A stretch of 64,000 nucleotides of DNA, taken from assembly GCA_004194705.1 (NCBI GenBank), contig SADC01001373.1, positions 106,011 through 170,010 on the forward strand, in the 5' to 3' direction. The notes beneath the pieces are model-generated. The model saw only the letters and a list, made by a program, of their open reading frames with translations, made no database searches and was not told the origin of the DNA. This document shows positions 10,757 to 59,469 of this stretch, piece by piece. The stretch is from Ditylenchus dipsaci (taxonomy: Eukaryota; Nematoda; Chromadorea; Rhabditida; Anguinidae). Each line of letters begins with the position of its first letter. Positions within the stretch are counted from its first letter, which is position 1. The translations under genes and the position numbers were made by a program.

Positions 10757-11220
10757 CAGTGTTTGGACTTTCAGAAAAGGGTCGTACTCGTACTTCGTAC
10801 TGCTAAATTTAGACTGTCGTACTTCGTACTCGTACCTCGTACAGCGAAAATTTTAAGCTCGTACATCGTACTCGTACCACGTACCTCTAAAATTTCTTCT
10901 CGTACTTCGTACTCGTACCTCGTACCACAAAATTTCAAGCTCGTACATCGTACTCGTACTTCGTACCTCTTAAATTTCTTCTCGTACTTCGTACTCGTAC
11001 CTCGTACCACAAAATTTCAAGCTCGTACATCGTACTCGTACTTCGTACCTCTTAAATTTCTTCTCGTACTTCGTACTCGTACCTCGTACCACAAAATTTC
11101 AAGCTCGTACATCGTACTCGTACTTCGTACCTCTTAAATTTCTTCTCGTACTTCGTACTCGTACTCGTAGTACGAGTACGAAGTACGAGTACGAAGTACG
11201 AGTACGAGGTCCAAACACTG
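10757..11220. mobile_element. hAT MITE with 8-bp target duplication
   Basis: CAGTGTTTGGAC / GTCCAAACACTG ends are flanked by identical GTTAAAAT (10749-10756 and 11221-11228). The interior is CGTACTCGTACTTCGTACC-type repeats, including three ~81-bp tandem units (10895-11145). An inverted CGTACTCGTAC block closes the right end. No transposase. Confidence 0.93.
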
Positions 11221-25508: not shown

Positions 25509-27304
25509 GGACCCGTAGCAAATATCGATTATTATAATGTTTAAATATTTAGTCACTAAATAAAAGTGGCAAATCGGTAGCAAATATAGAAATCTAAACT
25601 CTGAATATTTAGACGCTACTTTCTCGGTAGCAAATAAAGAAGTAGAATTTAGCTGGCCAAACTCTAAATATTTACTCGGAGCAAATATCGAATTAGACTT
25701 TAGCCTTCAGCAAGTGGGATGCTAAACTCTAAATATTTAGTCGTAGCAAATATCGCGATCTAATGTTTGTTCCTCTTTGTTATTTTAAATCACCAATCAA
25801 CAAGTTCATGTTCACCAAAAACATCTCTTCTATAAATATCTAGTCTAAACGTCGAAAGAATTCCTGCCTTTCAATCACCATTCCACTCTTCCTCTGGCCT
25901 CGTTTTATTCAATCTAACTACATCAAAAATATTCACGCACAATTCGATTTCTCTCTTGAACCCCAGTAATTTGACGTCCTTGGTAGAGTTCCGGATCCGG
26001 CTGCTCATCTTCGTATTCCTCCTCCTCTTCAGGCTCAGGCATACGCAGCTCCACGGCCAGGTTGTGCAACACGCATGTTGAGAGGACCACATCAGCCAAG
26101 TGCTCTAGACTGAGACGAACTTCACTGTGAAGAATCGCGAAACGACGCTTCCACTGCCCAATCTTCTGCGCCACACAGACCCTAGTTCTCTTGTGCGCCT
26201 TGTTATATCTGAAAGATGATCATTAACGTAACGAATTTGTAAACATTTAATATTATCGACCTCATCTCACTTGCAGTTGACGGTCTGAGGAATGGAGTCA
26301 TGAGCCATTTCTTACACGGGTAGTTTGAATCACCCAAGAGCGAACCACCGATTTCATTATTCTGGGAAGCATCCCACAGAAGGCTCGAGCGAAGAATATG
26401 AGAATCATGTGCGCAACCAGGATGCTTCGCGACCGCGTTTGTGAACTGTCCCTCTGAGTTGACGACCACCTAAAAGGGACCAGGAGTATGGGTTGAAGGT
26501 CAAAGAATAAATCGAAAAGCACCTGAACATTGATTGAATGCCTGTTCTTTCTGTTAACGTAGTCCCTCTTAACCTCCTGATTCGGTGCTTGAATATGGAT
26601 GTGCGTTCCATCGATAAGCCCCACCACGTACGGAAATCCAGCAATTCCGTAGAACATCCGCTGCTCCTTGGCAATCTCCTGTAAAATAAAGTTAACAATG
26701 CCAAAAGAGTAGGAGAAAAGAACAAACCGCTTGAGTTGCGGGCATTTAGATGTATTAGTTTGCCTTCAAAGCCAGAGTCGCACAAAAACGCTTCACACAG
26801 TTGGAAATTGATCGCTGGCTCATAAATGGTTATTTTTATAAATCGTTTTTTCGTCGAAAAATACGCGAGCAACGGGAAAACAAATATGACAGGAAGAAAG
26901 AGCGATGAAAGTTGGTATAGGAACATAAATATCAAAAAGTAGGTCAACAAGGTAAAAAATAGACCGAAAACAGCCAAAAAGTTGTGTCTAAATAAATTTA
27001 GACAGCCCCCTACCGCCCCACTTTTTTACTGTAAAAATTTAGAGTTTAGTGCGTATATTTGCTACCAAAAGTGGAATTTAGACTCGATATTTGCTGCGAA
27101 AAGTAGAGGTCTAAAAAAAGTAGAGTCTACTTTTTAGAGTCTAATTATATTTGCTACCAAAAACCTAAATATTTAGACACTACTTTTAAAGTGGAATTTA
27201 GACAGCGATATTTGCTACCACTAATTTTCCGCCAATTTAGAGTTTAGACTTTAGCATGCTAAACTCTAAATTCTAATTGCTAAATCGATATTTGCTTCGG
27301 GTCC
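25509..27304 (-). mobile_element. PIF/Harbinger transposon
   Basis: Terminal repeats GGACCCGTAGCAAATATCGAT and ATCGATATTTGCTTCGGGTC(C) bound a 1.8-kb element. The subterminal zones on both sides are arrays of TAAATATTTAG and GTAGCAAATAT motifs. It encodes a HARBI1-type transposase on the minus strand. A 3-bp target duplication is not obvious. Confidence 0.85.
25923..26678 (-). pseudogene. Harbinger transposase (DDE_Tnp_4), catalytic Glu lost
   Basis: Cut-and-paste transposase. Exons: 26524-26678 (FPYVVGLIDGTHIHIQAPNQ, then YVNRKNRHSINVQ), 26261-26469 (VVVNSEGQFT, PGCAHDSHIL, LLGDSNYPCKKWLMTP) and 25923-26208 (YNKAHKRTRVCVAQKIGQWK, LHNLAVE, acidic tail, REYF stop). The splice phases join cleanly. 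The DDE residues are expected in IDGTH, GDSxYP and VExxFGxxK. The first two are present, but the third motif reads VAQKIGQWK, so the acidic residue is Ala. N-terminal exons upstream of 26678 were not recognised; the DNA there is frame-broken. Probably inactive. The separate DNA-binding partner gene typical of this superfamily was not found. Confidence 0.88.
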
Positions 27305-45900: not shown

Positions 45901-48900
45901 CGGTAGGCCCCAGTATTCAAAACTATGTTCAACATCTTCTTGTTAGTGGCCCCTGTGTGATTAGTGGCCCCCTTTAATTCCCTTCCCCTCCCTATACAGC
46001 CCTAATTCCCTTTAAAAATGTTTTGGCGGGAATTCAAAAAAATATTTTTTTTGAATTTTCCTAAATTTTTCACCTTGGGGGACCAAGGCAAATCGAAAAA
46101 AAAAAATTTTCGATTTTTCGGAAACCAAAGTGTTTCCGTGCCTATTCAGAGCACGAGAATCAAAATGGGACGGGCCCTTTCCCCTTCAGGAAAAGTAAAT
46201 TTTTCGCTAGCTGGGGGGGGGGGATTCTATAGTATAGCCGTTTTATGCTGTTATAGAGTTGCAATAAAATTTGTTAGCTTCACTGGTGTTTACTAAAATT
46301 TTCGCTGTGTTGAAAGACAAGCGCACCCGCTCCAATAAGCGCACCTGCTCTAATAAGCGCACCCCCTAGCGGTAGATCGAAAAATAAGCGCACCGGTGCT
46401 CCTATTAGAGGAAATACGGTAGTATTTGGCATGTGTCTGTCCGTCCGTCGCCACTTTTCTTTTTAAGACCAATTTTGGGCCAGTTTTTGTGAACTCATGC
46501 GAAATATCTTTTCGGAACCCTCAAATTCAACATCTTAGCTCTCTTCTGAGCACAAAATTGTGAAATCGAAGTGGGTTCAAAAAAAAATTTCCAAGTCCCT
46601 TTAAATTGGAGATGGTGGATTTCAGCCTCGATTTTCGGTGGATGTTAGTGTTCAAGCCCAATTTTCGGACATTTTTTTGCAAATTTTTGTCAGATATCTT
46701 TTCGAACCCCTAAAGTTAAACTTCTAAGCTTTTTATTAAGCACAAACACGTAAATTTAAGTTGCTAATAATTTTTTTTTGTTGCAAGCCAAATTGCGAGT
46801 GAATGTGTTTGTAAAATTATCAGGTGCACTGTGTCTCAAAAATTCCAGCTATTTTTCGAAATTCACACAAATATTCTGTAAATCAATTTTTTATTACTTT
46901 TTTTACTTTTCTGAAATGTTTTTCACAATAAAATCTCTATATAGTATTTAGACTGTGTCTGTGGGTAACGCATTTGTGTTCAAGTCCAATTTTCGTTACG
47001 GACCATCCCCCACCCCTCGTCCCAAATGCTATGTAGAGATGGTTTTCTGAGTTTTACGAAAAATACTACAAAGAACCCCAAAACGCCATTCTGTTCTTGG
47101 GTTTCACAAACAACAAAATGCAAACGCATTTGTGTTCAAGTCCAATTTTCTGCTAATTTTTGAGGACCCATCTTATATGGTATTTGGGATGGGTGGGTGG
47201 TTAACGCATAAGAGTACATGTTTGGTCACAAACAAAAACTTTTTTTAGAGTGATATTTTTATTTGCATGTTTATACTCATTTGAAAGCTCTTTCAATGGC
47301 GGAGAACCTTCAGTGATCAGATTTGAGAATTAATGTGAAAAAATTGAGATTTTGCCGCTTGAAAGTGAAAAGTGGTGGTTTTCAGGGTTAATCTTACGAG
47401 CGCCCATTTGGTCACAAAGAAAAACTTCTTTTTAACTTTTTATAGTTTGGGCAGATCATCCGAGGATGAAATCCACCACCTCAAAACTACTTTTATTTGC
47501 ATGTTTATACTTATTTGAAAGCTCCTTCAATGGCGGAAAACATTTCGCAATTAGATCAGAAAGTTAATGTAATAAAAATTTGAGATTTTGCCCTTTGAAA
47601 GTGAAAAGTGGATTTATATATTTTTTTCAAATGCAATCGCATTTTTTTTAATTCGCGCATTTTTGAAATCTCAGAGTTTTCAAAAACTTTGTTCTTAAAT
47701 TCAAATTTTGAATGAGTTCGAAACTACATTTGTAGGTGAGGATAGGCGAGGATAGGCTAGGGTAGGCGCGGATAGGCGAGGATATGCGAGGATAGGCGAG
47801 GATAGGCGAGGATAGGCGAGGGTAGGCGAGGATAGGCGAGGGTAGGCGAGGTAAAGTATGGGGGTTAACAAGTAGAGTGGATGATCTGCCCTAACTATTA
47901 ACGCACTCGAAAGATTAATCTTTCTGAACTACTAATGTAAATGAGCCACTTCCCGAACCACAAGAATAGTGCCCGAACCACCAATGTTCCCGCACGGCAT
48001 AGGCGCCGATAGGCGCCTGCAGACCCTAGTTAGCTTGTATTGAGGTATTCTACCCCGTTTTGGTCACTGGAGCTGGGCAAAAAGAGTCTCTAAATGCATT
48101 TTTCTTCAAGAGTCTTGCTCAGAATCATGTCTAAGGTAAGTGAGTGCGCGCATCTCTAACCAACAGCTTGGAGTTGAGATGCGCACACCAACATACCTTA
48201 GACACAAATCCCTCGAAAGGGATTCTGGATGCAAAAAAATGTATGCATACCAGTGTTACTTTATGCGGTAGGCCCCAATCAACAAAACTATGTTCAAATT
48301 CCATCTTTTTGTGGTATCCAGGTACCCTTTCAGGTTGGATTGCCTTGGGGGACCAAGGCAAAAAGTCGAATTTTAGTCAAAAAATTTTTTTTCTAAAAAT
48401 CCATTTTTGTGTGGAAAAATGTCAGAAAATAACTTTTTTTATCGTTTTAAGCATATAAAAATTACTTAGGAGTCATTTAAACACTATTTGTTAAATAAGT
48501 GAAAAAAAAACCCTCACCCCCCCCCCCCCGAACCCAATAAGTGCCAAAATTTTTATTACAGATCCGACAATACACGGCCCCTCAAAAACTGCATTCTAGT
48601 GCATTTAAAAATAAACAAAACGCCAAGAATTTCAAAAAAACTTTTTCTGCGCTTTCTAAACAATTTTTAGCTTTCAGATACTTTGCTTGAATTTAGACAA
48701 TTTTATTGCAAACCTGGACAATTACAACTCAAAAACTTTCACATCAAACAAAATGTTTCTCACAAAAGAGTCTTTCAATATTTTCTTAAGTGTATTCATT
48801 CTTTCACGCATGCAGGAAAGCCTCCTTTCATCACCATTAACTTTGCAGTGCAAGGCTTCTATTGGCTGCTCAGACAGAAGACCCCAGAAACGATGCTTAT

Positions 48901-51900
48901 CCATGAGATGAAGAGACGGGGGAATGCAGTTAGAAAGTTCAATTGGCAACAGCCATCTCTAGTTAAGAACGTAATCAGCTTCATTTAAAACTTCAACACC
49001 TCAAACATCACAAATCAAATATTTTTTCCCTTTCACAATTTGTTTAAAAATTGCTAAAACACTGAAAATATAGAGTTTTTAACCGAAAAAAGAGAAGAGA
49101 TCTAAATCTCCTTCACTATGACATAATCCTGACACTCCACTTGACTACCTCACCTGATAACACAGAGAAAGTAAGAAAACGAATACAAAAACTACATAAT
49201 AGTTGAGTTTATTCAGAACAACTTATGAGAAAGACAAAAACAAAGTGGTTCTTAGAGGAACCTTTGGAGTAGTAGTAACGAGTATGACTGTGTAACGATT
49301 GTGTTGCAATTCCTTCCAAAGCCTCAGCATGAAGTTGACCACGAAGACGACGAGCCAGCTGAAGATCCTTGCACATGACGGTGACCCGCTTGGCATGGAT
49401 GGCACACAAATTTCTGTCTTCGAAGAGGCATGTCAAATACATTTCCGGGGTTTCCAGAAGAGAAAGATCGGCAGACGTCCTAAATACAAATAGATTTTAA
49501 AGGACATATACGGAGTCTAAAGAAGAACGTACTTATATCGAAGAACCGTCTTGAACTCTTGCGCAATTTCACGGACAAGGCGCTGGAACGGAAGCTTACG
49601 GAGCACCAAATCAGTCGACTTCTGACAGTGACGGATCTCACGAAGAGGCAACAGTGCCAGGATGATAGCGACGCGCCTTCTTGATTTTACCATCAACTCC
49701 GGTACGAGCACCTGTCTTGACACCTACAGGCTTTTTAAGAGCTTTTCCCGCCACAGTCTCATGCGCAGTTTGCTAAAGTAAAAAATAAGTGTGATCACTG
49801 AAGAGGTACCAAACGCTAACCTGTTACACCTGCTGAAACCTGCTGCTTTAGGACCGGTTGACTCATTCATTCTTGATTTCTGTCCTGCCCTCTGCTTCTT
49901 CGATAGCTTGAATTGCGAGTCCTCATCATACCTGAAAATTATACCAAATTTAATTCCGTCAAAAAATCTAAAAAAGTCGTCGTTTTCAGGACGTTTCATG
50001 CACCAAAAGAAAGCCTAGACATTCAGCTACAAGAATAATTGAGCCAATTTTCGTAAAGATGTTATTTTAGAAACTAGAGACCACTTGGAGCAAACAACTG
50101 GCATTTTTCCGAGTAAAAATAGGGGTTTTTGCGTTTCCCATCTAACTTTTGTATAAGACACCCGAAATTTGTATTTTTTGTATATGTCCTTGGTACCAAA
50201 ATGTAGCAAATTCACTCATCTATCACGTCTAGTCTTGCTTCAGCAATTTATTGTCAAAAAAATCGGCGTTGATATCAATCAAGTCAAATAAATCGAATAA
50301 AATTTTCAGAAATATTCACGAAAAGCTCTTCTAGTTTTGAAATTCGTTAAGTTTTTCGGGCACGTGATAGCTTGTTCGAAAGCGCTGAATGTGGTGAGTT
50401 TTTTGACAATAAACTTACATGAGGTACAGCGAAAAAAGTAAAAGAAGAAGAGCTGGATAAAATAGATTAAAAAACAGCGGTTTTTCAAAATTTTTGATTT
50501 GGCGCCAAATTTCGCTAATGCACTAGAATACAGTTTTTGAGGGGCCCACGGCCCCTCAAAAACTGCATTCTAGTGCATTTAAAAATAAACAAAACGCCAA
50601 GATTTTTGAAAGACATTTTCCCATATTTTCTATAATTTTCAGTGTTTATTGACTACGATATGCAAATTTTGACGAAAAATTCTAAAACTTGTTTTCTGGA
50701 CTAATTCAAGCATTCTGATGATTGTTTGACAGTACTGAAATTATGTTTTGCTAGATTTACGAAAACTATGAAAATACCAGAAAAACGAATGGTCAACAAA
50801 AATTAGATCAAAAACACAGCACAACTATGCCCTTGCAACTATCCTAAAACACCAGATTCATGCAATGGTACCAAAATAACATTTATTTTGCGGAAACTCA
50901 AAAGTAAATGTACGATATAACGCAACATCAGATTCATTTACAACATTTTCCTGGAATATTATCCTTCTTCAACGACGCTTCTTTGCATCCTTACTATTGA
51001 AGATATCCAAATAGTCATTATCGGCGATGTTGAGCCTAAATAAGATTGGTACACAACAAAAAATGGTAATCCACAGAAACAAAACTTACATCAGGACATC
51101 CGACGGAAGGGAAACTAGATTAGAAGAGGCGGATGACACAGTCTTGGCTATCTTCTGCACTGATCTTGCGCAGCTTCAGAAAACCAGGATCACTCTTCAT
51201 GGATTCACCCAGCTGAAAAAGCTAGTTCGGAAGCCATTTGAATTAATGAGTCTCTAAATTAACATCCCCCAAGGACGATCCCTCGGGTTGCAGTTAATCT
51301 AAGCGTCGACTACCGTATTTCCTGTATTAAACGCCCCGGGGCGTTTATTTTTAAATCGACTTCTAGGAGGGGGGGGGCGTTAATTAGAGGAGGGCGTTAA
51401 TTACAGGAAATACGGTATACTATAAAGAGCTTATGACTTACCATATGAGCAGCTTCAGCCTTCCCTTCAGCGTCATTCCTTTACGATGGCGCGAAGCACG
51501 ACCCACCAAAAAAGCAGAAAGACGACCGACTGAGCGATTGGCGAGACGTTGATCAGATTGGAGCAGTTGAGCGCACTAATTTTCAACGGAAGATTGGCAT
51601 CTCTGCGATTCAACTGAAGGTGCTCAATCAAACGAAACAGTATTCAGTAGAAAAATTACTTACACATTCTTTGTTCAACTCAGTTACGGTTAATTCTTCA
51701 CCAAGGACCCGATCCACTCTCTCAGCTGTACGCATCAGGAGAACCACGAATTTCCTCTCATTCCGCCTCTTGATTCGCTTGTTCCTTATTCTTCCATCTT
51801 TTCTAGATTCCGGCATCCTTAGCGTGCTCACTTGCCTTCTTCTTGGCTTCTCTCTGCTGTTCTACTTGCTGACTACGCGCTTTCCTTGTTTGAACTTGCT

Positions 51901-53256
51901 ACTTTTCAACCAATCGACATGGCATTGCCGGTTCCAGAACTTTTTGCCACTGCTCGTGATTTGAACTGCGAGTCTTCATCAGATCTGAAAATTATACTAA
52001 ATTTGATCCCGTCAAAAAATCTAAAAAAGGCGTGCCAGAGTGTGTGCCAGAGCTTGAAATTTTCCGAATATCGGCTGCTCCTCAGCATCTTTTTGCATTT
52101 TTCGTGTGCTGACCATTGTTAGACCTAAAAACAGAAAGCTTTGTCTCGCATAAAAAACTCACAAACTCGCATTTTTTCCAACAATTTATGTACTAAAAGA
52201 TAGCGCGACCATCAAAGTCTTACTACAAACTATAAAAAGTTCTTAAAAGTCATTTTTTAGAAATCTTGGACCATATTAGTGAACCAACTGGCATTTTTCC
52301 GAGTAAAAATAGGGGTTTTCGCGTTTTCCATTTAACTTTTGCATAAAACACCTAAAATTTGCATTTTTTGTATACGTCTTTGGTACCAAAATGCAGCAAA
52401 TTTACTCCTCTATCGAGCCTCCAGTTGCGTTTCAGGAAAACTCGACATAAAATAGTGCTAGAATCTCAATCGAGTCAACTAGATGAAAAAATTTCTTTGA
52501 AATTTTCACAGAAATCAATTATAGCTTCGAAATTTTGCATGTTTTATGGGCAAGTGATGGCTTGTTCGAAAGCGCTGAATGTGGTGAGTTTTTTGACAAT
52601 AAACTTACATGAGGTACAGCGAAAAAAGTAAAACCAGAAGTGCTGGATAAAATAAACTAAAAAACAGCGGTTTTTCAAAATTTTTGATTTGGCGCCAAAT
52701 TTCGCTAATGCACTAGAATGCAGTTTTTGAGGGGCCGTGGGCCGTGAATAGTCTCGCATTTACATCAAACAAATTTCGAGAGTTTTTCAATTTCCGCAAA
52801 AAATTTCAAAAAGCCATTTTTCACGTTTTGAAAAGCCGTGTAAAAAGATCCAACCTTGTATTTCTGGATGAACTGGATCAAATGAGCGTTGAGTTGGTCT
52901 CCATGAAGCTTGTTCAGTTCTAGAGACATCATGCACATATCCTTGAAATCACTTCGAGTAACCAATTCTAACCTTAGAATAAGCACGTATACCCAACGAA
53001 AAAGAGTCTTGACCAAAATTATGAACATACTTGCAGAATCTTTGGTTTTTGTCAGTGTTTCCTAAGAGGGTACACTTTATATACTTCATATTATTCTGGC
53101 GCGAATCTCGGACAAATGAGATTATTTTCTGTGGCGCTTGGTCAATGCTGAATGTGAAGTGCTGTCTCTGCCTCAGATCCTTGAATCTGGAATGAGAGAA
53201 GGCGCCACTGTACAGGAAGTCGACGTTTTGTTCGTCATAAATCTCCACTTCAAACC
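39768..53256 (-). CDS. sas-6: SAS-6-like centriole assembly protein (8 exons seen)
   Basis: SAS-6 builds the centriolar cartwheel: globular heads oligomerise into a ninefold hub and coiled coils form the spokes. Head exons 53031-53256 and 52855-52972 read [35 protein letters not shown], then [10 protein letters not shown] and [18 protein letters not shown]. This follows the SAS-6 head order, and the HGDxLxxHL end is close to nematode SAS-6 as I recall it. After a 9.4-kb intron come six exons (43412-43465, 42677-42763, 42551-42631, 42406-42483, 39964-40110, 39768-39914), all phase 0 at both ends and all heptad-rich. No frameshift in any of the eight. The 5' exon(s) above 53256 and the 3' exons below 39768 are not assigned. 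That the coiled-coil exons belong to the same gene is inferred from strand, phase and domain order. Confidence 0.8.
39964..40110 (-). CDS. sas-6: sas-6 coiled-coil exon 5
   Basis: 49 codons, [20 protein letters not shown], then [20 protein letters not shown] and ASSEHYKKR. It follows a 2.3-kb intron. Confidence 0.75.
40111..42405. other. sas-6 intron with two foldbacks
   Basis: A foldback at ~40572-40982 has GCCGGTTAAAATGAC...CTATGGTTTT arms and TGAGATATGACC at its centre. A smaller one at ~42010-42185 has CTTGGTTTAGTTCACAAAAA arms. A TATACAGGGTTTCTCAAAAG end at ~40515 recalls the TACAGGGT-ended elements. No exon seen. Confidence 0.55.
42406..42483 (-). CDS. sas-6: sas-6 coiled-coil exon 4
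   Basis: 26 codons, [20 protein letters not shown] then EKFAQD. Clear heptads ([11 protein letters not shown]). Confidence 0.75.
42551..42631 (-). CDS. sas-6: sas-6 coiled-coil exon 3
   Basis: 27 codons, [20 protein letters not shown] then TQEANLR. Acceptor TTTAG, donor AGG|GTATGT. Confidence 0.75.
42677..42763 (-). CDS. sas-6: sas-6 coiled-coil exon 2
   Basis: 29 codons, [20 protein letters not shown] then EELHEENDE, charged and Leu-spaced. Confidence 0.72.
43412..43465 (-). CDS. sas-6: sas-6 coiled-coil exon 1
   Basis: 18 codons [18 protein letters not shown] between TTGCAG and GTAAGT. First exon after the long intron. Confidence 0.6.
43553..43640 (+). repeat. tRNA-derived SINE-like segment, partial
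   Basis: GCATGGCGCAGTGGTTAAGT (A-box) is clear, but the B-box side (GGTCTCTGGTTTCGTTTTCG) is degenerate. It is preceded by GGCTTTTCAAAACGTG, the same arm end as the element at 4807-5440. Confidence 0.5.
44740..45315 (+). pseudogene. pogo/Tigger-like transposase, DNA-binding half
   Basis: N-terminal helix-turn-helix: [20 protein letters not shown] then [12 protein letters not shown], with a one-base shift before [16 protein letters not shown]-type second domain: [36 protein letters not shown], and after a small intron [36 protein letters not shown]. This order is the standard N-terminal half of Tigger/pogo transposases. The DDE catalytic domain is gone: the frame ends at ~45315 and the foldback begins at ~45345, with under 100 bases of leftover element on the far side. 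Not functional as a transposase; it could still bind the element ends if expressed. Confidence 0.85.
45345..46245. mobile_element. Foldback with an R1 loop inside the pogo element
   Basis: The ~265-bp arms (45345-45612, 45965-46240) contain TTCCTGAAGGGGAAAGGACC / GGGCCCTTTCCCCTTCAGGA, GCCTTGGTCCCCCAAGGTGA and ATTCTATAGT-type ends. The loop is an R1 module (45670-45935). The arms are ~90% complementary. Confidence 0.8.
47735..47865 (+). repeat. GATAGGCGAG minisatellite in the Helitron
   Basis: About twelve copies of a 10-11-bp unit GATAGGCGAG with GGTAGGCGAG and GATATGCGAG variants. The homologous array in the other family-B copy is at 39195-39295. Confidence 0.85.
48722..48949 (-). CDS. Transposon-encoded protein, C-terminal fragment
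   Basis: Frame of 75 codons: [20 protein letters not shown] then [20 protein letters not shown]. The pattern WGLxSEQxIExxHxxxN followed by a basic helix is one I recall from a repetitive transposon-related protein family in Caenorhabditis; I cannot name it securely. It stops 20 bases before an AATAAA-like signal near the element end, so it may be the terminal exon of the element's own gene. The matching N-terminal part is missing or replaced by the H3 cargo. Confidence 0.5.
   Translation of the reverse strand: MPIELSNCIPPSLHLMDKHRFWGLLSEQPIEALHCKVNGDERRLSCMRERMNTLKKILKDSFVRNILFDVKVFEL
49209..49772 (-). pseudogene. Divergent histone H3 copy inside element 1
   Basis: Exon 49533-49772 reads [29 protein letters not shown], then (shifted) [37 protein letters not shown]. 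Exon 49209-49479 continues [49 protein letters not shown]. The AA|G splice restores Lys. The histone fold is well kept, but exon one is 240 nt where 239 are needed: one extra C at ~49645 between TVA and LREI breaks the frame. The tail is diverged: Glu where Lys9 should be, and no Lys at the Lys27 position. The usual stop after RGERA is lost and the frame runs on 35 codons. Cargo of the element; role unknown. Confidence 0.87.
49870..49999 (-). CDS. Element 1 leader frame
   Basis: ATG at 49999 opens [20 protein letters not shown], then [20 protein letters not shown]. Bases 49909-49977 match element 2 (51961-52029) almost base for base, including a TTTTCAG site and the DEDSQFK codons, so this part is element-derived rather than H3-derived. 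Whether the first half is exon or intron is unclear. The function is not recognised. Confidence 0.5.
50091..50206 (-). promoter_or_regulatory. Shared promoter-like block, element 1
   Basis: A ~115-bp sequence running (minus strand) from CTACATTTTGGTACCAAGGA through CCCCTATTTTTACTCGG to AATGCCAGTTGTTTG. Near-identical blocks lie at 52282-52396 and 57826-57943, each ~90-170 bp upstream of a start codon. Position and conservation suggest a promoter/5' UTR; no experiment supports it here. Confidence 0.6.
50969..51850 (-). pseudogene. phb-2: Prohibitin-2 C-terminal copy inside element 2
   Basis: Prohibitin-2 forms the ring-shaped inner-membrane scaffold of mitochondria. Recognised parts, minus strand: a weak [13 protein letters not shown]...LTVTEL block (~51850-51664), SDQRLANRS...[14 protein letters not shown] then [11 protein letters not shown] (to 51442), exon 51090-51212 ([17 protein letters not shown], then shifted [20 protein letters not shown]), and exon 50969-51035 ([14 protein letters not shown]...DAKKRR stop). 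Both C-terminal introns rejoin codons properly (M|L and L-M-L). There are frame breaks before DAEGK and after LRKI; the 123-nt exon should be 3n+2. The N-terminal transmembrane part is absent and replaced by the element leader, so the copy is 5'-truncated and chimeric. Confidence 0.87.
51311..51417. mobile_element. pogo-type MITE in the prohibitin-2 intron
   Basis: TACCGTATTTCCTGTATTAA / TTAATTACAGGAAATACGGTA ends at TA; 107 bp with an ACGCCCCGGGGCGTT hairpin. It is the shortest member of the family and shows that element 2 has itself served as a target. Confidence 0.9.
51940..52116 (-). CDS. Element 2 leader
   Basis: ATG at 52116 opens [20 protein letters not shown], then [11 protein letters not shown] and a stop. 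After a TTTTCAG site comes [20 protein letters not shown], homologous to the element 1 leader ([12 protein letters not shown]). The MVSTRK start resembles MVSTRR at 58105. Basic, low-complexity, no recognised domain. Confidence 0.5.
52282..52396 (-). promoter_or_regulatory. Shared promoter-like block, element 2
   Basis: Matches 50091-50206 at roughly nine of ten positions (TTTGGTACCAAAGACGTATA, CGAAAACCCCTATTTTTACT, AATGCCAGTTGGTTC). It lies ~165 bp upstream of the ATG at 52116. Confidence 0.6.
52855..52972 (-). CDS. sas-6: sas-6 head exon (end of head domain)
   Basis: 118 nt, acceptor CTAAG, donor AAG|GTTGGA. It completes the split Lys codon and reads [20 protein letters not shown], then [19 protein letters not shown]. 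The split-codon match supports the model. The following 9.4-kb intron starts in an AAAACGTGAAAAATGG repeat end. Confidence 0.87.
53031..53256 (-). CDS. sas-6: sas-6 head exon (first recognised)
   Basis: Acceptor TTTCAG, donor GCAA|GTATGT. 226 nt opening with two bases of a split codon and ending in phase 2. The central block [19 protein letters not shown] and [20 protein letters not shown] correspond to the beta-rich SAS-6 N-terminal domain. Confidence 0.85.
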
Positions 53257-57272: not shown

Positions 57273-57825
57273 CAGCTAGGATGGATAGATAATTTGTAGA
57301 TAGAGGGATTACTAAAAAAACTATAGTCGATTCTCGATATAGTCAAAACACGATAATAAAAATCCACTGGAATCCCACCTTATTGCCACTGGTTTACCAC
57401 TAAGTTACCAGTAGTAATTCCATCGGATGCGTGTGGGAATTTTGTGTTGTACCAGTTGCAATTAGGTAGGAATCCAGCAAGAATTAGGTGGTATTCCACT
57501 GGAATTTAGGTGGAATTCTACTGGAAATCAAGTGGTGTGCCAGTGGGAAAAAGTGCCGCCCGGTTGGAAATGGAACTTGTGACCTGCGAGGTCGATTTTT
57601 GAGCCACTATCCACTCGACCAGGGCAGGGGCAGGCTTATATGAACGGAAATATGTTATTGGTATCAGCCCAGGGCTACACTAAATGAGCATTTAATGAGC
57701 ATTCAAAATTAAATTTGATTTTAAGAAATGAGCATTCGAGTGTCGTTCTAAAAAAGCTTGAATGCTCTTTAAATTGATTCTTCTCTGAGAAAAGCAATCT
57801 AAGGATTGAGAGAGGAGTAATTTCA
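57273..57825. other. Repeat fragments and tRNA-like segment
   Basis: Variants of AGGTGGAATTCCACTGGAAT occupy ~57370-57560. A tRNA-like segment (minus strand; GGTCGAGTGGATAGTGGCTC and CAGGTCACAAGTTCCATT) is at 57568-57620. An AATGAGCATTTAATGAGCATTC repeat starts at ~57680. Confidence 0.45.
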
Positions 57826-57943
57826 CTGCATTTTGGTACCAAGGACGTATGCGAAAAATGCAAATTTAGGGTGTCTTATGCAAAAATTAGATGGAAAACG
57901 CAAAAATCCCTATTTTCACTCGAGAAAATGCCAGTTGTTTGCT
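57826..57943 (+). promoter_or_regulatory. Shared promoter-like block, third copy
   Basis: The same block as in elements 1 and 2, opposite strand: CTGCATTTTGGTACCAAGGA, GGGTGTCTTATGCAAAAATT, AATCCCTATTTTCACTCGAG and AATGCCAGTTGTTTGCT. It stands ~160 bp upstream of the ATG at 58105. GAGGAGTAA before it is also shared with element 2. Confidence 0.62.
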
Positions 57944-58104
57944 GTTGATGGTCTTTCGCTTGTAAAACTCTTGGTTTTTAAAATTCTATTTTGGCAAAAA
58001 GATAGAAGATAATGTTAGCTTTTTTTGGTATAAAAAAATGCTCAAAAATGCAAAATTTGAGGTTTTCAATGCAAATGAATTTTGCTATAATTTTATAGCT
58101 GAAG

Positions 58105-59469
58105 ATGGTTTCCACCAGAAGAATGTGCGCTAAGCCAAATGGACTGTCTCTAGCCGAAATTCGTGCAGCCGCAGCCAAGAAAAGGTGGGAAAAGGAAAGG
58201 CTGAAGAAGCATAAACTAGATGAAGCCGAAATTCAAGATGCCGAACAATCAAACATGATGCGTAGAGCTCGCCTATCTAAGTAAATTTTTTGGTGGTTGT
58301 ATTTTCCAATGTTTGCGGAATTTCGGAATATTAAGATTCTTGTAGCAAAATTTGCCGAAGAAAAGGAAGAGCAGTCAACAAAAGCTCAAGATGATGCCGA
58401 AGCCAAAGCGATCCTCTCAAAAGCTATTCTCTCATTCTCGTTTACTTCAACATAAATTTCTCATGTTTTCAGAAAGCCCTATGGTGCGAACAAGACGTAC
58501 TGCTGTAATGGATAGTGAAGAAACAACAAAGCGATCCGGCAGTCTGAGGACTTCGAAATCAACAGCAGCAGCAATGGAAGCTAGAATTGCAAATAAAATT
58601 GCAAAGGAAAAGGCTTGCGCAAGAGCAAAGGCAGCGAAGATCATAACATATGAACAGGTTCGAACTTCTCTGTGATTCTATAATGTCTTCATGTTATGTC
58701 TTTAGTTTGGCAGCGATGAAGCTTTCTCCTTATTGTAAACAGTTGAAGAAGATGCATCGGCTTAAGAGGGGAAACTCAATAAAGTCAATTCTCTGTTTGG
58801 TAAGTTCGCATCACACTCTCTGTTATATCCGTACATTCTGCCTTCTAGATGTCTGGATTGACACATGTGCCCTTGCTGCTCACAAATTGCTTGAAGAAGT
58901 ATGATTACCTTTACTATCTTTTAACTTGACGACCAATCAATTTTCGGCCATCTCAGTGATTCGGATATGTTCATTGTCGAAAATGCTCTATGCGTAATAA
59001 GAAACATAAGCTTTGCTGATATGTGTCGTGATCTTACATCTGAAGTTGTCAAACTCGCCAACAGAGCGAAAAGCAGCTGAGCATGGCATTTTTGGTCCAT
59101 ACCTTCAGGTTTGTAGCAAAATAAATGCGCCTCTACACAAATTAAATAGAAATTTAGATCAATATTTTCGAGCTTTGGGCTGTAATTATCCGTGATGAAA
59201 CTTCTCCCAGTGAAAAGATGAGCGATGTTCTATCCCGGATGACAATTTGCTGTGGTGGCTCGAATGTCAGTTTCGCTATTCTCTTCGAGACCGTCCTTAC
59301 CATAAAGATGAAAAGTAGTGTTCAGCTCAAAGCTTTGGCAGTGGATATTGTCGATCGAGTTTTCATGGACCGTGACGGAAGCATTCAGAGTTCTTCTCTG
59401 AGCCTGCGGGCGAGATCGGATGGCTACGTGGACTGCAGAGTAATCAGGCATATCAAGTCAGAGAAATAG
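58105..59469 (+). CDS. Multi-exon gene behind the shared promoter block
   Basis: Exon 1 from ATG 58105: MVSTRRMCAKPNGLSLAEIR, AAAAKKRWEKERLKKHKLDE, ending near 58280. The next exon reads KFAEEKEEQSTKAQDDAEAK. Exon 58473-58657: MVRTRRTAVMDSEETTKRSG, ...MEARIANKIAKEKACARAKA. Then short exons with SGLTHVPLLLTNCLKK and (from ~58957) NDSDMFIVENALCVIRNISF, ADMCRDLTSEVVKLANRA. A last frame, 59218-59469, has FAILFETVLTIKMKSSVQLK, ALAVDIVDRVFMDRDG. The middle resembles an armadillo-type helix pair (ENALCVIRNISF), but I cannot name a family. Phases conflict at ~58700 and ~59080, so the copy may be broken. By analogy with elements 1 and 2 this is probably another leader-plus-cargo chimera. TIR ends were not found. 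Confidence 0.5.

Follow-up and report, generated by a model that had tools for sequence, protein, structure and literature searches.

A 64,000-nt stretch of contig SADC01001373.1 from the nematode Ditylenchus dipsaci (assembly GCA_004194705.1, positions 106,011 to 170,010 of the forward strand; called the window hereafter, with positions counted from its first letter) contains two DNA transposons that carry copies of host genes—one of histone H3 and the other of prohibitin-2. These elements and their relatives elsewhere in the genome are very probably Pack-type elements: non-autonomous derivatives of a Chapaev (CMC) DNA transposon that have captured host genes. They retain the transposon ends, the promoter block, and the leader—the H3 elements also a C-terminal piece of the transposase—and their middle is replaced by pieces of host genes. 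This anatomy is well supported.

Ends, target sites, and transposase

Both window elements end in 33 bp of the Chapaev type (CAC...GTG) and are flanked by target-site duplications (TSDs) of 4 bp. Searching the 227-Mb genome with the 33-bp end, as a first-pass annotation of the window had proposed, gives 175 matches at up to three mismatches (89 forward and 86 reverse) and none for the reversed pattern as a control; the count is far above chance. Among the elements with both of these ends present (A-type), a perfect 4-bp TSD is found in 29/32 and a 5-bp duplication in none, and mispaired left and right flanks of different elements agree over 4 bp in 14/1406 pairings. Three A-type pairs have common flanks (C65/C1026, C1181/C1314, and C1338/C1259; C numbers denote contigs), and collapsing them leaves 26/29 sites with a TSD. 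Further end families exist. The B-type ends (CACAGGGGCTTAAAATTC..) begin with CAC, have 38 + 49 matches at up to three mismatches, and show a perfect 4-bp TSD in 4/6 elements. A third family (CACACCCTTTCAAAATTTGAAT) likewise begins with CAC and has 109 + 104 matches at up to two mismatches. The control is zero for both, and both enclose prohibitin or H3 cargo. Another end type is present at C473 and C1256.

Two longer copies, C942 (3199 bp) and C836 (3228 bp), bear the same 33-bp ends, 4-bp TSDs, and a row of exon-like frames. One exon of C836 matches DUF1280 (PF06918) at 5.6e-22, and the family search finds both copies. In total, the genome has 96 DUF1280 matches, some of which (e.g., C911, C171, C1309, and C1101) lie between CACAGGGGCTTAAAATTC.. 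ends. According to the available sections of the cited texts—to which all literature statements here refer—DUF1280 proteins are putative Chapaev transposases and form one clade with RAG1 (PMC3985635), CAC..GTG ends and 3–4 bp TSDs are Chapaev hallmarks (PMC4079192), and the transposase motif consists of DDE residues with C(2)C and H(3-4)H between the second D and the E (PMC12730594). Inspected by eye, the exons of copy L071 contain LGDKGG, TGDLKF, CPIC, HILRQH, and SEQSIEALH in this order, which reproduces the DDE/C(2)C/H(3-4)H motif with a predicted catalytic role. The family unites CAC..GTG terminal inverted repeats (TIRs), 4-bp TSDs, a DUF1280 transposase within the same ends, and the DDE motif, which places it in Chapaev (CMC). 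The gene capture suspected in the first pass by analogy to Pack-MULEs stands, but the superfamily is Chapaev and not Mutator.

At C70:529841-534108 (L020/L021), an element with RPB1 and H2B cargo seems by eye to be inserted in a PSMB-type element, as a second nested pair, and a 4.8-kb copy at C867:52330-57900 (L070) holds leader type 3, transposase remnants, and other repeats. The assembly contains allelic duplicate contigs and many short gaps beside the same base; copy counts and frameshifts need care.

Nested elements of the window and the origin of their parts

In the window repeat analysis, the two window elements have direct repeats in common (259, 175, 86, and 73 nt; 82–89% identity), along with inverted ends of 30–33 nt at 97–100% identity; this confirms the ends, the subterminal DNA, the promoter block, and the leader segment that the first pass had seen in both. 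The elements were, however, described there as abutting. The H3 element (element 1) spans 48573-52746 with the TSD AATA, and the prohibitin element (element 2) occupies 50547-52739—one base earlier than the first-pass start of 50548—with the TSD GGCC, within the right end of element 1. Since GGCC flanks element 2 and the final GTG and AATA of element 1 lie beyond it, element 2 was inserted into the terminal repeat of element 1. The parts are as follows:

48569..48572, no strand: AATA, left TSD copy of element 1, read in the sequence; equals 52747-52750
48573..50546, minus strand: H3-carrying Chapaev element (element 1) minus its last three bases, from repeat and genome matches
48573..48906, minus strand: element 1, transposon 3' end with a C-terminal piece of the transposase; aligns over 334 bp with the 3' end of C836, the DUF1280 transposon (97.3%)
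48903..48953, minus strand: element 1, further transposase piece, overlapping the 3' end by 4 bp where the two join; aligns over 51 bp with an inner part of C836 (98%)
48954..49830, minus strand: element 1, captured DNA of 877 bp with the histone H3 copy; matches neither transposon copy beyond a few edge bases
49480..49532, minus strand: H3 intron, 53 nt, GT..AG, from the alignment; the H3-like locus C284 breaks at the same residues
49533..49772, minus strand: H3 exon (QTAHET..LRY), from the alignment; 1-nt insertion in the window copy, also in C335
49831..50546, minus strand: element 1, transposon 5' end with the promoter block and the leader; aligns over 716 bp with C836 (92.6%)
50543..50546, no strand: GGCC, left TSD copy of element 2 and at the same time bases of the right end of element 1, read in the sequence
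50547..52739, minus strand: prohibitin-2-carrying Chapaev element (element 2), within element 1; 15 full-length genome matches including itself
50547..50642, minus strand: element 2, transposon 3' end; 84.7% to C836
50969..51035 (approximate ends), minus strand: last prohibitin-2 exon, ending in a stop, from the copy alignment
51090..51213 (approximate ends), minus strand: prohibitin-2 exon, with a 5-bp deletion in the window copy; PHB2 match in the PDB at 3.4e-15 with a joined query
51442..51560 (approximate start), minus strand: upstream prohibitin-2 exon; the copies compared suggest that the frame breaks by one base ahead of NDAEG
51961..52116, minus strand: element 2, two leader starts, ATG 51979 and ATG 52116, from the leader search
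52282..52739, minus strand: element 2, transposon 5' end and promoter block; 85.4% to C836
52740..52743, no strand: GGCC, right TSD copy of element 2, read in the sequence
52744..52746, minus strand: GTG, last three bases of element 1, past the nested element, read in the sequence
52747..52750, no strand: AATA, right TSD copy of element 1, read in the sequence

A second copy of the nested pair on contig C1259 shows no substitutions and 16 gap events relative to that of the window in 4974 aligned columns (L001 vs L002), and its fetched flanks match the window flanks. The most probable explanation is the other allele or a duplicate contig, and the pair was not counted as an independent copy. Counting itself and this allelic copy, the H3 element has five near full-length matches in the genome.

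That the two elements adjoin and have flanking blocks in common might suggest a local tandem duplication of one segment instead of transposition, which the first pass had named as a reason to abandon its proposal. This is scarcely credible: the nested TSDs resolve both elements, and the shared segments recur at many dispersed sites with different 4-bp TSDs of their own (29/32 A-type elements).

Compared with C836, the H3 element reads as a 3' end of 334 bp (97.3%), an inner piece of 51 bp (98%), 877 bp of foreign DNA, and a 5' end of 716 bp (92.6%). All of the eight two-ended elements compared match a transposon copy at both ends, with 80–98% identity in the 5' match; the ANP32 element of C75 and the RPB1-H2B element of C131 were fetched with one end open, which confines their view to little beyond the 3' end. 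Because the 5' 716 bp of the H3 element are the transposon 5' end, the supposed constant leader is the transposase promoter followed by the first coding exon. The shared block is thus not the promoter of an unrelated host gene—the second reservation of the first pass—but the 5' end of a DUF1280 transposon.

The coding exon common to transposase and leader begins M(M)RTRNSS.. after a TTTTCAG acceptor. Hence, the leader splice site of the first pass holds, but its DEDSQFK frame gives way to this transposase-shared one. Six leader types were found with a search that required M-x(1-2)-T-R following a TTTCAG-like acceptor and therefore cannot show such a start in every leader. Types 2, 3, 4, and 5 are present on stretches with transposase sequence. 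The idea of a constant leader with interchangeable host genes survives as a common 5' module with varied cargo; constancy does not, given at least six leader types. The leaders at 49929, 51979, 52116, 58105, and 58481 begin with M..TR, as the search pattern asked. Leader type 6, MVRTRRTAVV, is similar to the tail of histone H3 (MARTKQTARK).

Captured host genes and exchange of modules

Nine host genes were identified as cargo: H3, PHB2, PSMB, ANP32, MSP, RPB1, H2B, RPB6, and AP-1 gamma. The two cargos named in the first pass are borne out by PDB matches at 1.6e-41 for H3 (query joined from frames of the C335 copy) and 3.4e-15 for prohibitin-2 (joined query). The matches are 1.1e-27 for ANP32A, 2e-18 for H2B as a single-domain chain, 5.1e-13 for RPB1, 2.7e-9 for RPB6, 1.3e-8 for MSP, and 2.9e-5 for PSMB. 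Cargo classes were counted on 75 stretches, a non-random sample gathered with queries for H3 and prohibitin and completed by the first 30 end matches listed, five longer fetches, and 18 chosen mid-pieces; it includes three allelic pairs, and three stretches count in two classes. The sample holds prohibitin 30 times (two being the nested pair and its allele), RPB1 + H2B 12 times, H3 eight times, PSMB and ANP32 six times each, MSP twice, and RPB6 once. The other classes are U2 (4), U3 (1), a pogo/CENP-B-like piece (1), transposase (5), and none (2). Seven of the nine identified genes occur in more than one copy within the sample.

For the U2 cargo (C98, C116, C146, and C465) and the U3 cargo (C206), the searches yielded no identity; an NTF2-like domain was considered for U3 and, with a match of 0.44, not believed. 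A homology search with leader plus U2 found no match, and one with leader plus H3 cargo listed as its 120 best matches H3-type proteins of other organisms, with no leader–H3 proteins among them. Part of the prohibitin cargo was also tried as histone H2A and dismissed, as a Pfam scan of the piece was empty and the prohibitin alignment spans the stretch. The pogo-like piece gives a CENP-B_N match and lies within the family element L010 (C9:69783-72815), as cargo or as a later insertion.

The H3 and prohibitin cargos retain GT..AG introns. Loci elsewhere in the genome reach up to 96% identity to canonical H3, and these and the prohibitin-like loci at C551 and C851 are candidate parents. At the H3-like locus C284, the match falls into two blocks separated by the same 29-nt gap as in the cargo copy C76, and at C851 the break at query residues 30/31 corresponds to the cargo splice site. 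Host coding sequence at dispersed sites might also arise from retrocopies of host mRNAs inserted into the transposon. A retrogene is expected to be intronless, which neither cargo is, and this origin is very improbable; the first-pass view of a capture as DNA is upheld.

The same cargo is found in different surroundings. The junction of the PSMB cargo with the transposon lies at 1149 of the C836 lineage in C53, and at 880 of the C942 lineage in C161. Prohibitin cargo occurs with leaders 1+2, 2, 3, 4, 5, and 6 and at least two end families, and mosaic prohibitin elements are found at C41, C268, and C1314:218650-220671. Since PSMB joins two lineages at different points and prohibitin has varied leaders and ends, modules have been exchanged. 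Some of the spread appears recent: compared with C131 over ~700 bp, RPB1-H2B mid-pieces of ten other contigs show 0–6 substitutions in 9/10 and 13 in the tenth, and L020 of C70 differs from C131 by 1 substitution in 980. Short gaps beside the same base make up much of the remaining difference between copies and look like assembly errors. As the mid-pieces differ by so few substitutions, the RPB1-H2B class spread recently.

These observations bear on how often capture happened. The captures might have been few and old, with the present variety arising mainly by recombination among elements. The different ends and leaders of one cargo, the two PSMB junctions, and the mosaic prohibitin elements fit this possibility, which we consider the less probable one: nine identified host genes and further cargo speak for more frequent capture, as do the near-identical RPB1-H2B copies—although the youth of copies does not date a capture.

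For the Pack-type elements proposed here, a break or gap inside an element, after excision or fork stalling, would be filled by copying a host gene. The DUF1280 transposase of relatives might then mobilize the cargo elements in trans, as suggested by the ends common to both. Modules could be shuffled via template switching between related elements, and transcription is predicted to start in the transposase promoter and to read into the cargo. Gap repair or fork switching with a template change would fit the replaced interior between kept ends, the intron-bearing cargo, and the microhomology-like overlap; gap filling and template switching have been proposed as models for animal Pack-TIRs (PMC8277862).

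A third, older related element of the window provides the AP-1 gamma cargo:

57789..59466, plus strand: third element, promoter block at 57789-57971

Its leaders are MVSTRRM (58105) and MVRTRRTA (58481), and its AP-1 gamma adaptin fragment at 59158-59466 (4.4e-7) forms a 103-aa open frame. Clean ends were looked for at 57789-59466 and none were found. Its 5' part recurs at 37 further places, out of 40 candidates scored, when the element itself and its C1259 allele are set aside.

Within the prohibitin intron, 51311-51417 is an inverted repeat with 26-nt arms at 92% (TACCGTATTTCCTGTA..), found also in seven other prohibitin copies compared; it appears to be a small element that was there before the prohibitin elements spread. 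A hairpin with 29-nt arms (86%) lies left of the H3 element at 48128-48204. Elsewhere in the window, the minus-strand frame at 26298-26765 gives a weak DDE_Tnp_4 match (2.8e-05, 24.2 bits vs a cut-off of 24.8) like a Harbinger-like remnant, 923-1656 is an 18-bp tandem repeat of 41 copies that translates openly as a DHSRFN repeat, and 10782-11169 is a tandem repeat of 82 bp in 4.7 copies.

Coding state, known systems, and significance

The copies in the window are damaged. In the H3 element, a TCA->TGA change ends the leader frame that starts with the ATG at 49929, and the H3 exon has a 1-nt insertion; both are shared with C335. The prohibitin copy bears its 5-bp deletion. Because the short gaps beside the same base look like assembly errors, a frameshift confined to one copy was not taken as a sign of decay. 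Across copies, constraint was judged from synonymous:nonsynonymous changes, with variants taken as independent, such that these tests give hints only; thirteen loci were dropped beforehand as allelic or overlapping, and some overlaps are left in the PSMB, MSP, U2, and leader counts. H3 exons show no constraint over seven copies (9:16 with one stop and 4:15 with two stops), with pairwise ratios of 0.55–1.92 for pairs with both rates >0.02. The prohibitin exon shows 11:9 and one stop over 27 copies (expected synonymous fraction 0.28, p 0.011), the last exon 4:4 (p 0.08), and both exons over 17 copies 15:13 (p 0.0003, without transition weighting). Other cargo exons have 0 to 8 changes, too few to judge (0:2, 0:2, 0:0, 0:0, 3:5, 1:2, 0:0, and 0:0), the leaders have 4:9 and 0:3, and the DUF1280 exon shows constraint on two copies (5:2, p 0.013). 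Among the cargos, there is hence a hint of coding constraint for PHB2 only.

Splice models were used to join leader and cargo. At strict scores, a path exists in 2/13 located cases, both prohibitin. Looser models, with prohibitin omitted, reach the right frame in 6/13 and the wrong frames in 5/13 and 4/13; the right frame is best-scoring in 2 of 8 cases with any path, and H3 is without a path in 3/3. From 28 prohibitin leader starts, a path was found for 5, of which 2 at strict scores; wrong frames are blocked there by local stops and therefore provide no control.

It might be argued that the cargo genes have a function within the transposon: they would be expressed as fusions to the transposase leader and maintained by selection, e.g., as decoys in host chromatin or transcription. 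The synonymous excess of prohibitin (p 0.011 and p 0.0003), its retained stop and 3' end, and the right-frame paths of copies C473 and C1272 at strict splice scores would agree with this. However, H3 exons lack constraint and other cargos have too few changes, the window H3 copy shares its leader stop and frameshift with C335, the right frame is reachable about as often as the wrong ones, H3 paths are 0/3, and only 5/28 prohibitin starts have one. Conversion by the host gene could moreover mimic constraint, and variants were counted as independent. We therefore regard such functional fusions as improbable. The cargo set is rich in chromatin and transcription genes (H3, H2B, ANP32, RPB1, and RPB6). 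Similarly unlikely is the idea that the family is a modular, recently active exon-shuffling system recombining ends, transposase N-termini, and host genes, in which some chimeras are translated as fusions that aid the element, e.g., as decoys of the silencing or transcription machinery.

Several observations weigh against a Pack-type Chapaev family as described here. A perfect 4-bp TSD is absent in 3/32 A-type and 2/6 B-type elements, and no transposase-bearing stretch showed leader type 1 or 6. The transposase C-terminal exon is without coding constraint (3:12, six copies), and the 3.2-kb copies were read as stop-bounded exons, which makes transposase activity putative. The intron identity of cargo and host genes is based on match coordinates, with C284 and C851 as putative resident parents, and in-frame leader–cargo paths come from splice models only (2/13 strict, 6/13 looser, and 5/28 prohibitin starts). 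The elements nevertheless show what defines Pack-TIR or Pack-TYPE transposons: a host gene fragment between transposon ends, a missing or truncated transposase gene, multicopy spread with distinct TSDs, and, in the case of H3 and prohibitin, loci of the same gene elsewhere in the genome as candidate parents.

Pack-type capture itself is already known, in plants (PMC13317346) and in animals. A survey of animal Pack-TIRs (Tan et al. 2021) finds 370 across 100 reference genomes, four being multicopy, describes a multicopy family in fly populations, and assigns 87% to hAT or Tc/mariner; "Chapaev" and "CMC" are absent from its text (PMC8277862). Animal Pack-TIRs resemble the worm elements in the host DNA between transposon ends, the distinct TSDs when multicopy, and the proposed gap filling or template switching (PMC8277862). 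They differ in that the single Chapaev group of the worm has nine identified host genes, seven of them multicopy in the sample, behind transposase 5' sequence. Plant Pack-CACTA, Pack-MULE, and Pack-TYPE elements are likewise non-autonomous and bounded by TIRs, and they pick up coding DNA from many genes and shuffle it (PMC13317346, PMC8903248); CACTA belongs to the same CMC group; here, on the contrary, the host is a worm, the transposase is of the Chapaev type, and ends and leaders vary besides the cargo. Turmoil-1 of Caenorhabditis elegans (Sela et al. 2008) is also a DNA transposon of a nematode that has captured exons and an intron from its host, but is a Harbinger element with two captured fragments inside its inverted repeats and one complete copy (PMC2572040). 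Chapaev transposons share the CAC..GTG ends, the 3–4 bp TSD, and the DDE transposase, but "captur" and "nematode" are absent from that text (PMC4079192). In the open-licence literature searched, no account of a host-gene-capturing Chapaev family was found.

In plants, TIR transposons commonly capture genes; in animals this is thinly documented, and the available texts describe fragments that are mostly present once (PMC8277862) or a single element with two of them (PMC2572040). The worm family—with nine identified captured genes, young near-identical copies, and transposase-bearing relatives that have the same ends—would open the capture mechanism to study in an animal. Capture junctions could be set against the parent genes, and the age of each capture could be estimated from sister species. 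Also, gene counts, such as those of histone or MSP families, may be inflated by transposon cargo in such genomes.

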